A stretch of DNA of 32,162 nt from Parcubacteria group bacterium (lineage in GTDB: Bacteria > Patescibacteriota > Patescibacteriia > Patescibacteriales > GWC2-42-12). This document shows, in pieces, positions 2,239-21,058 of this stretch. The stretch covers positions 1 through 32,162 of the forward strand of contig JACPHD010000004.1 in the NCBI GenBank assembly GCA_016188785.1. The letters run 5' to 3'. The notes beneath the pieces are model-generated. The model saw only the letters and a list, made by a program, of their open reading frames with translations, ran no database searches and was not told where the DNA came from. Each line of letters begins with the position of its first letter. Position 1 is the first letter of the stretch. A program made the position numbers and the translations under genes.

Positions 2239-2559
2239 ATGGAAAATAACAAACAAAATATTAAGATGATTTTATATCCAATTCTATATTGGGTTATCTT
2301 TATAGTTATTCCTTTTATCATTACGCAAATAGTGAAGATTGATAGCTGGATTTATAATTTTGCCGGTTTGATATTTATTTATATATTATTTATTGCTCCG
2401 TTATTATTTATAGTTCCTTATAAATTATTGAATTTCACTACCAAAGCGCAAAGAATTATTTTCTGGGTTATAGGCTTAGTTTTACCTTATATTATTATAT
2501 ATATATATGCTTACTACCAGTTAATCCATATGTATGATAATTTTAAAGCAATAGGATAA
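2239..2559 (+). CDS. Small multi-pass membrane protein, hypothetical
   Basis: 106-aa ORF with several hydrophobic segments, 3 nt after the preceding stop. Confidence 0.6.
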   Translation: MENNKQNIKMILYPILYWVIFIVIPFIITQIVKIDSWIYNFAGLIFIYILFIAPLLFIVPYKLLNFTTKAQRIIFWVIGLVLPYIIIYIYAYYQLIHMYDNFKAIG

Positions 2560-2711
2560 TTTGGAAAAATAATCAATTCCACAAATTATAAAACACAGCC
2601 CTCGTCGCGGTGTTTTTTATTTCTATGAAGCGGGGGCTTGCTAATTTTTCGGTTATGAGATAAATTAAAAATAACCAGAACCGTTTTCATCAATGGAGGG
2701 AGGTGAGAGCA

Positions 2712-2909
2712 ATGGCCGAAATAAATATGAAATGGGGGCATTTAGATCAAGGGTTTTTTCGTTATGACAACCGCATATATTTCGCTACGCCGCACGGGAA
2801 GTGGGTTTTTTATTTTCCTGTCAAAGACGGAAAGATCTGTCGGTCCAGCGGTGTTGATTGTCCAAACATTTGTCCTGGTGAAGAGATTAGCGTTATTCCT
2901 GACAGATAA
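2712..2909 (+). CDS. Small hypothetical protein, about 65 aa, Cys-containing C-terminus
   Basis: ATG at 2712 preceded by a very strong Shine-Dalgarno (GGAGGGAGGTGAG); MAEINMKWGHLDQGFFRYDNRIYFATPHGKWVFYFPVKDGKICRSSGVDCPNICPGEEISVIPDR. Confidence 0.6.
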   Translation: MAEINMKWGHLDQGFFRYDNRIYFATPHGKWVFYFPVKDGKICRSSGVDCPNICPGEEISVIPDR

Positions 2910-2932
2910 GGCGGTTGCTGGCCGTAATCGGC

Positions 2933-3035
2933 GTGTCCGCAATCCGGACACTATACCAGCCAATTGCGGCGATCAATAATCGGCCCAGTCTGGCTTACCG
3001 GCCAGACTATAAAAAGGGGGAAATAAGGCTTTCCC
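2933..3035 (+). other. Cluster of three perfect stem-loops (2933-2951, 2987-3008, 3018-3035) downstream of the small ORF; candidate structured 3'UTR or ncRNA
   Basis: GTGTCCG-caatc-CGGACAC; AGTCTGGC-ttaccg-GCCAGACT; GGGAAA-taaggc-TTTCCC, followed by the terminator at 3067. Confidence 0.45.
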
Positions 3036-3066
3036 GGTTTACCAGACCCTCTCTCGCCAGATTTCA

Positions 3067-3100
3067 GCCCAAGCCCTCAAAGCTTGGGCCTTTTTATTTT
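3067..3100 (+). terminator. Intrinsic terminator
   Basis: GCCCAAGC-cctcaaa-GCTTGGGC followed by CTTTTTATTTT. Confidence 0.8.
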
Positions 3101-4563
3101 ATCCTCGGTATAAATCTTCTGATATTATCCAGCACCGAACGTCTTAAATTCTGCTTGATTTTATTTCTGGCCGTAGCGGTTTTAATGAATTTAAGCCAGT
3201 CGCGGTTCGGACCTTTGCGTTTTTTGTCCGTGATGATTTCCACCAGGTCGCCGTTTTTTAGTTCTACATCCAGGGGCGCGATTTTATCATTCACCAGGGC
3301 GCTTATCGCCTGGTTGCCCACGTCTGAATGAACATAATAAGCAAAATCAATCGGCGTTGATCCTTCGGGCAAGTCAAAGACATCGCCCTTAGGCGTAAAG
3401 ACAAAAATGCGGTCATTAAAAACATCAAATTCTATTTGCTTGATAAAGTCAGAAGTGTTTTCGGTTTCTTTTTGAATATTCAGAATTTCTTTTACCCAGG
3501 CTGGTTGCCGGTGCGCGTTTTTGCCGCGGCCGCCGTCCAGCTTATAAAACCAATGGGCGGCGATGCCGTATTTAGCGCCATCATCCATTTCTTTGGTCCT
3601 GATCTGGAATTCGGCCGGTTTGCCGCCCGGACCATAAACCGTGGTGTGCAAGGCTTTATAGCCGTTAGGTTTTGGCACGGCGATATAATCTTTAAATCGG
3701 CCCGGGTTGGGCCGCCACAGAGCATGAATTATGCCTAAAGCTTTATAGCAATCAGCAATGTCAGGCACGATAATGCGCAAGGCGAAAACATCATAAATTT
3801 CGTCAAATTTCCGCTCTTTTTTCCGCAGTTTTAAATAAATGCTGTAAAGATTTTTAAAACGGCTGGTAATCTTAAAGGGAATTTTTGCTTCCCGCAGTTT
3901 GGCGCCCAGCAGGTTTTTCACTTTTTGAATATATTGATTATGCTCAAGCTTTTTTTCCACTTCGTATTTATAGGCTAATTTTTTATAATCTTCTTGGTAA
4001 AGATACTTAAAGCAAATATCTTCCATCTGCAGTTTTAACCGCCAAACGCCTAAAAGTCCGGCTACGGGCGCGTAAATTTCCAAAGTCTCGCGGGCAATGC
4101 GCTGCCGTTTTTCCAAAGGCAGATATTCCAAGGTTCTTAAATTATGCAGGCGGTCGGCGAACTTTATTAAAATAACTCTTAAATCTTGCGCCATGGCTAA
4201 AAACATTTTGCGCAAACTTTCGCGGTAACGTTCAATGCCGCGGTATTTTATTTTGCTTAATTTAGTTATACCTTCCACCAGACTGGCCGTTTCTTTGCCG
4301 AAATTTTTTTCAATATCGGCCAGGGTGAATTCAGTGTCTTCGGGAATGTCATGCAAGAGGCCGGCAATAATGGTTTCCAGATCAGCCTTAATTTGAACTA
4401 AAGTGAAAGCCGTGTGCAGGCAGTGCTGAATGTAGGGTTCGCCGCTTTTTCTTTTCTGGCCGGCATGGGCTTTAACGGCAAAATCATAGGCCAGCCGGAT
4501 CATGGTGGTATCGGCCCCGGGATTATTTTTTTTAAAGTCGTTTATGATTTGGCTGATGGTCAT
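3094..4563 (-). CDS. RelA/SpoT-family (p)ppGpp synthetase/hydrolase with HD, synthetase and TGS domains; no ACT domain
   Basis: HD motif (AGLLHDIPEDT), synthetase motifs (RFKDYIAVPKPNGYKALHTTVYG, EFQIRTKEMDDGAKYGIAAHW), TGS (VFTPKGDVFDLPEGSTPIDFAYYVHSDVG); ends shortly after TGS at 489 aa. Confidence 0.92.
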   Translation of the reverse strand: MTISQIINDFKKNNPGADTTMIRLAYDFAVKAHAGQKRKSGEPYIQHCLHTAFTLVQIKADLETIIAGLLHDIPEDTEFTLADIEKNFGKETASLVEGITKLSKIKYRGIERYRESLRKMFLAMAQDLRVILIKFADRLHNLRTLEYLPLEKRQRIARETLEIYAPVAGLLGVWRLKLQMEDICFKYLYQEDYKKLAYKYEVEKKLEHNQYIQKVKNLLGAKLREAKIPFKITSRFKNLYSIYLKLRKKERKFDEIYDVFALRIIVPDIADCYKALGIIHALWRPNPGRFKDYIAVPKPNGYKALHTTVYGPGGKPAEFQIRTKEMDDGAKYGIAAHWFYKLDGGRGKNAHRQPAWVKEILNIQKETENTSDFIKQIEFDVFNDRIFVFTPKGDVFDLPEGSTPIDFAYYVHSDVGNQAISALVNDKIAPLDVELKNGDLVEIITDKKRKGPNRDWLKFIKTATARNKIKQNLRRSVLDNIRRFIPRIK

Positions 4564-14555: not shown

Positions 14556-15566
14556 ATGTTTAATTTTTTCAATTTTTTTAAAAAAAATAAATTAGAACAG
14601 CCTGAAATAATAGAAAAAAAAGTTTCTGATGCTTTGCCAGAACCGGTTAAAACTGATGATGTAGTTATTCATGTTATGCCGGAACGTTTCCGCCATCAGC
14701 CGGTTAAACAAAGTAACGCTAAAACTACCGGCTTGGTGATAATTGTCAGTGGAGCCATGGTTTTAATAGTGGCTTCGGCGGCTTTATATTATTTTTTATT
14801 AAGGCAGCCAAGCGCCACGGTTGTTCAAAAGCCGCCAGCGGCCGCGGAGAATAATCAGCCGCCAGAAACCGCGCCGACCGTTAAAATTCCCGAGGTTATA
14901 ACCGCCACTGGCACCGAAACCGCGACTTTGTCTTTAGGCGGCGAAAGCGCCACTACCACCGCGGCTACGACAACTCCTGAAAATGCGCCGCCGGCTCAAG
15001 ACCTTAATTTGCGCGCCGGCGCGGACCGTGATAATGACGGCTTAACCGACTTGGAAGAGACTCTTTTAGGCGTCAGTTCAACTACGCCGGACACTGACGG
15101 CGATGGCTATCTTGACGGCGCTGAACTTATAAATTTATATAATCCGGCCGGCGCTGGCAAATTAACCGCCAATGCGCATATTTCTCTTTATGAAAACAAG
15201 ACTTTTGCTTATGATTTGCTTTATCCCTCGGCCTGGACAACCAGCATTAACGGCGGGGACGATTCGCTCATGTTTAAATCAGGCGATAATCAATTTGTGC
15301 AGATCATCGCCCAGCCTAACGCCAATAAAGAAACACTTGACGCTTGGTATATGGAACAGCTGGCCGTTTTAACTATCAATGAAGCCGATCGAGCAAGCGG
15401 TTCTAATTGGCAGGGTCTTAAAAGTCCGGACAGTTTAAATGTGTATCTAATGGATAAAAAGCAAAACTATATTTTCAGCTTAACCTATAACCCGGGCAAC
15501 GCCGATGTTTTAGATTATTCTAATATTTTCAAGATGATGATTAAGTCATTTAATTTAAAAGATTAG
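14556..15566 (+). CDS. Single-TM protein with thrombospondin type-3 repeats and a C-terminal PsbP-like domain
   Basis: DRDNDGLTDLEETLLGVSSTTPDTDGDGYLDGAELINLYNPAGAGKL, then YENKTFAYDLLYPSAWTTS...; shared layout with the preceding gene. Confidence 0.78.
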   Translation: MFNFFNFFKKNKLEQPEIIEKKVSDALPEPVKTDDVVIHVMPERFRHQPVKQSNAKTTGLVIIVSGAMVLIVASAALYYFLLRQPSATVVQKPPAAAENNQPPETAPTVKIPEVITATGTETATLSLGGESATTTAATTTPENAPPAQDLNLRAGADRDNDGLTDLEETLLGVSSTTPDTDGDGYLDGAELINLYNPAGAGKLTANAHISLYENKTFAYDLLYPSAWTTSINGGDDSLMFKSGDNQFVQIIAQPNANKETLDAWYMEQLAVLTINEADRASGSNWQGLKSPDSLNVYLMDKKQNYIFSLTYNPGNADVLDYSNIFKMMIKSFNLKD

Positions 15567-20918: not shown

Positions 20919-21058
20919 CCCCGCACCTTTTTTTATTTGAATTTACGGCCCCTTCGTCTAATGGTTAGGACACCAGGTTTTCATCCTGTAAACAGGAGTT
21001 CGATTCTCCTAGGGGCTACGAATTTATTTTATTAAAATTTTTCCATAAAGGTGCGGGG
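20919..21058. repeat. Perfect 12-bp inverted repeat inside the tRNA insertion
   Basis: CCCCGCACCTTT (20919-20930) and AAAGGTGCGGGG (21047-21058). Confidence 0.95.
20947..21018 (+). tRNA. tRNA-Glu(UUC), nested within the insertion of the outer tRNA
   Basis: GGCCCCT TC GTCT AATGGTTA GGAC A CCAGG TTTTCAT CCTGT AAAC AGGAG TTCGATT CTCCT AGGGGCT A; anticodon TTC. Confidence 0.92.

Follow-up and report, generated by a model that had tools for sequence, protein, structure and literature searches.

Integron gene cassettes consist of a small ORF and an attC site, as described for the general structure of integrons and their attC sites (PMC9668308). The locus studied here, part of a 32,162-nt stretch of DNA that we call the window, resembles such cassettes in that a homologue of its small gene sits in a site of this kind in the genome G202 and in that the window genome has an integrase, but the window copy lacks an adjoining core-site motif and its hairpins are not the arms of a single long palindrome. 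With a second type of system, small-protein mRNAs with a structured 3′ untranslated region (3′ UTR), the locus shares a short ORF, a strong Shine-Dalgarno (SD) sequence, stable stem-loops, and a terminator; it differs in having three extra hairpins ahead of the terminator and in encoding a protein of an unnamed family. A literature search on the window element itself found nothing relevant. For a phylum with poor annotation, the locus contributes a small-protein family, orphan and unnamed, whose gene has an unusually hairpin-rich 3′ end.

A rare small-protein gene beside relA

The window corresponds to contig C9 in a ~1.0-Mb genome of 45 contigs; its homologues place this genome in the same order as a "Candidatus Falkowbacteria" (Patescibacteria) genome. 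A scan of strong-SD ORFs recovered the 65-aa ORF and its strong SD exactly where the original prediction had put them (Table 1), with an 8-nt match complementary to 16S rRNA (GGAGGTGA, 2699-2706) lying 5 nt ahead of the ATG at 2712. A protein search, proposed at that stage as a check, yielded two homologues with ~50% identity, both in G202 ("Ca. Falkowbacteria" UBA12426, same order), and no named family. Because these two homologues exist and 26 of the 65 residues are invariant, the ORF is a real but rare protein gene. Both homologues carry extra C-terminal residues that are missing from the window copy, and reading the window ORF on past its stop gave no likeness to these longer C termini. 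Searches of the remaining genomes of the order, of genome samples from the class and phylum, and of viral contigs, phages, and plasmids confirmed no further homologue (two marginal profile matches were left out because of internal stop codons). Profile searches against Pfam, NCBIfam, PHROGs, and PADLOC gave no significant match, nor did a search of solved structures, and AlphaFold models of the family (run twice, three sequences) had a mean pLDDT of 43 to 44, too poor for a fold search.

The next gene is a convergent relA, and the hairpin stretch therefore has no downstream gene to regulate in cis. As read from the sequence, the 3′ neighbor of relA in most relatives examined is an rpsU-like gene, often with a GatB/YqeY-like gene after it, so the window locus is lineage specific. 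On the + strand between 2408 and 3200, no sigma70-like site reached at least 9/12, although promoters in this phylum may escape a consensus-based scan; the best promoter-like site upstream of the ORF, at 2638, scored only 8/12. Since the ORF itself has no clear promoter, the missing promoter between ORF and hairpins is weak evidence.

Table 1. Features of the small-gene locus and its convergent neighbor (window coordinates)
Feature	Position	Strand	Basis
Shine-Dalgarno region, GGAGGGAGGTGAG	2695-2707	+	Read from sequence
65-aa ORF, orphan small-protein family, MAEINMKWGHLDQGFFRYDNRIYFATPHGKWVFYFPVKDGKICRSSGVDCPNICPGEEISVIPDR	2712-2909	+	Homologues in G202
Extended hairpin, outer stem GCCGTAAT/ATTGCGGC (2921-2928/2963-2970), 7-nt bulge	2921-2970	+	Predicted fold
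Inner perfect hairpin of 2921-2970, 7 bp	2933-2951	+	Perfect-hairpin scan
Hairpin AGTCTGGC...GCCAGACT, 8 bp perfect, 9 with one more pair in fold	2987-3008	+	Scan and fold
Weak hairpin GGGAAA...TTTCCC, 6 bp	3018-3035	+	Perfect-hairpin scan
Intrinsic terminator GCCCAAGC...GCTTGGGC then CTTTTTATTT, 8 bp plus T tract	3067-3089	+	Terminator scan, hairpin scan
RelA/SpoT gene (HD_4, RelA_SpoT, TGS), convergent	3094-4563	-	Domain matches

Perfect hairpins 3′ of the stop codon

A scan for perfect hairpins returned exactly the four that had been described from the letters alone (Table 1). An outer stem GCTGG/CCAGC, suggested to enclose the first of them, is possible, but the predicted fold favors GCCGTAAT/ATTGCGGC in that place. 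The region is also, as had been noted, less AT-rich than its neighbors (GC 0.525 versus 0.24 to 0.32 just upstream); the same higher GC is seen in many other parts of the genome. It folds mainly into separate tandem hairpins, not one long palindrome, and the hairpin at 3018-3035 is also terminator-like on the - strand, reading towards the ORF. The segment up to 2911, including the ORF, has a fold z of 0.13 and is unstructured beyond chance, so structure is limited to the stretch 3′ of the stop codon. Pairing of the SD with the 3′ UTR was considered and rejected: 8 bp can form, but 60% of shuffles equal this.

None of 2,000 dinucleotide shuffles contained four such hairpins in 191 nt (mean, 0.22), and only 4 of 220 long intergenic regions of the same genome reach four perfect hairpins (top 2%). 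Across the ~1-Mb genome there are eight places with four such hairpins, including the 16S rRNA, a small-ORF element on locus L051 (see below), and L061:15221; among the rest, inspection showed coding sequence and palindromic repeats in intergenic DNA. Relative to shuffles, the fold z is -4.6 for 2910-3100 (about -4.0 without the terminator) and -5.1 for 2916-3010. Background windows of the same genome (751 intergenic windows) average -2.1 (standard deviation, 2.5), and ~21% of them lie at or below the target's fold z. The count of perfect hairpins is beyond chance, and folding energy alone is ordinary for this genome.

The hairpin stretch as a probable 3′ UTR

We found no blastn homologue of the hairpin stretch in its own genome, its family, or 111 genomes of the order; weak short matches to the region include a coding TPR-like gene and an SD region. 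A covariance model (R1), which was built from a single sequence and may miss distant relatives, gave no second match in 381 genomes. In an Rfam search of the whole window only a tRNA at 20947 reached the gathering threshold, and the best subthreshold match at the hairpin stretch (anti-hemB, 18.9 versus 49.5 bits) was driven by the terminator. The earlier impression that the stretch lacks recognizable hallmarks of tmRNA, RNase P, or SRP RNA is borne out: no Rfam family falls within it, ARAGORN finds no tmRNA in the window, and the tmRNA of this genome sits elsewhere (L070:3804-4191). Both homologous genes in G202 end in a simple terminator without a hairpin cluster; the gene and the hairpin stretch are therefore separable. 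The proposal of a candidate structured RNA stands insofar as the stretch is structured and belongs to no known RNA family. Its stronger form, a conserved functional noncoding RNA (ncRNA), is unsupported because the searches gave no homologue, the ORF homologues occur without the stretch, no recognizable promoter precedes it, and the intergenic background is itself rich in strong hairpins. Nothing shows the stretch to be a conserved regulatory RNA, given that it has no detectable relatives.

Because the hairpin stretch has no detectable relatives, no recognizable promoter ahead of it, and no downstream gene and is separable from the gene, we consider it on balance probable that it is the 3′ half, or 3′ UTR, of a single-gene unit for an accessory orphan small protein and not a conserved regulatory RNA. 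The mRNA would start upstream of 2695 and be translated efficiently from its strong SD, and the transcript would continue for ~157 nt beyond the stop codon via three stable hairpins into the terminator, so that ORF and hairpins would be cotranscribed. Hairpins at the 3′ end of an mRNA can stabilize it. Those of the window would most likely be passive, stabilizing the short mRNA by shielding it against 3′ exonucleases and insulating it from the convergent relA gene; the small gene itself may have been acquired by horizontal transfer. Counting against a plain 3′ UTR, four perfect hairpins in 191 nt exceed what one needs.

A hairpin density above all shuffles and among the top eight places of the genome, the fold z of -5.1, and an intrinsic terminator at its end would suit an independent or processed structured ncRNA at 2910-3090 with its own function, whose family would be restricted to close, unsampled relatives. 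We regard this as unlikely: neither blastn nor the covariance model finds a homologue, Rfam gives no match, the stretch has no recognizable promoter of its own and is missing beside the G202 ORF homologues, and the fifth or so of intergenic windows noted above fold equally strongly relative to shuffles.

An integron-like system in the same order

One of the two G202 homologues (L099/L010) is enclosed by imperfect inverted repeats whose core is common to three sites on another contig of that genome (L100), where they adjoin a tyrosine recombinase. The site of the homologue reads GTTAAGTGAAATA at L099:14395, with the arms TGTATCTG...CAGATACA around the ORF. Combining a core-site motif with an imperfect palindrome, this homologue is, judged by sequence, a candidate integron cassette. 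At both L100:194-394 and L099:14611-14844 a small ORF lies in the loop of the palindrome, between the inner arms and not beside it; the latter ORF is the homologue of the window gene. The palindromic sites share GTTNNNYG(A/C)AATA.

The L100 recombinase scores above the NCBIfam cutoff for NF040815 (site-specific tyrosine recombinase/integron integrase) and below that for TIGR02249 (integron integrase). A recombinase 62% identical to it lies in the window genome at the end of contig C28, and upstream of both is an attI-like sequence, CAATAAGTTCG(C/T)ATATAA. Of 111 genomes from the order, 7 contain a 17-nt version of this site, a reversed control pattern having no match, and an integrase lies alongside it in 6 of 10 fetched loci. 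The sequence 3′ of the site differs between most genomes (three begin alike), and several contigs end shortly past it. The parts of this system (recombinase, conserved attI-like CAATAAGTTCGYATATAA, mostly differing inserts, and palindromic sites) were seen across L091:2450-3568 (the C28 end in the window genome), L100:1-2877, L099:14370-15000, and L121-L130. This combination of a recombinase, an attI-like site, and varying inserts looks like an integron. A narrow literature search found no paper describing an integron in this phylum. As a side finding, the integron-like system holds more interest than the hairpin stretch itself. Its wider value is that it carries part of the small gene's family in this Patescibacteria order, and such a system would be a concrete route for reduced genomes to acquire small genes. 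Separately, an identical 42-nt sequence with a core-like GTTCATTGCAATA occurs at or near two contig ends of the window genome (L042:26 and L048:18425), where another recombination site may have interrupted the assembly.

The integron-like surroundings of the L099/L010 homologue, the related integrase and same attI-like site on C28, and the lineage-specific locus beside relA could mean that the window palindromes act at the DNA level, as a degenerate recombination site or as the remnant of a mobile element that delivered the gene. Near the gene, however, we found neither classical attC boxes (RYYYAAC/GTTRRRY, 2560-3110) nor the GTTNNNYG(A/C)AATA core (2500-3150), and we rejected the hairpins as attC; they are mainly tandem and separate instead of one long palindrome, with no clear flanking terminal repeats, and a role in DNA recombination seems quite unlikely. 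That the stretch is ordinary hairpin-rich intergenic DNA, clustered without function, would fit a background with many far more structured windows, but is very unlikely given a perfect-hairpin count that even so places it among the top 2% of long intergenic regions.

Other structured elements in the same genome

Elsewhere in the window genome, L051:14928-15300 (contig C27) carries a near-perfect sigma70-like promoter, ~320 nt with about eight hairpins (z, -9.4), and a terminator. It lies just downstream of a tRNA-Leu, and its first hairpin encloses the SD of a 37-aa ORF. From 14980 to 15300 it shares the layout of the window locus (strong SD, short ORF, hairpin run, terminator), but the two have no sequence similarity, and the L051 element is far more structured and has a sigma70-like promoter. 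Rfam gave no match to it, a search of 111 genomes gave no homologue, and it is a stronger structured-RNA candidate than the window stretch. The two could conceivably belong to a loose class in Patescibacteria, whose members join a very short ORF with strong initiation to a multihairpin RNA body and, as dual-function mRNA/small RNAs, travel as mobile cassettes, but we consider this a long shot.

Two minor observations concern the same genome. Near a tRNA-Pro, L061:15121-15450 is a GC-rich multihairpin stretch that no Rfam family matches at the gathering threshold. At L051:15620-15688, a 22-aa lysine/alanine-rich ORF (MAKKKAAKKKATKKKATKKRKK) has a perfect AAGGAGGTGA SD and a strong terminator.
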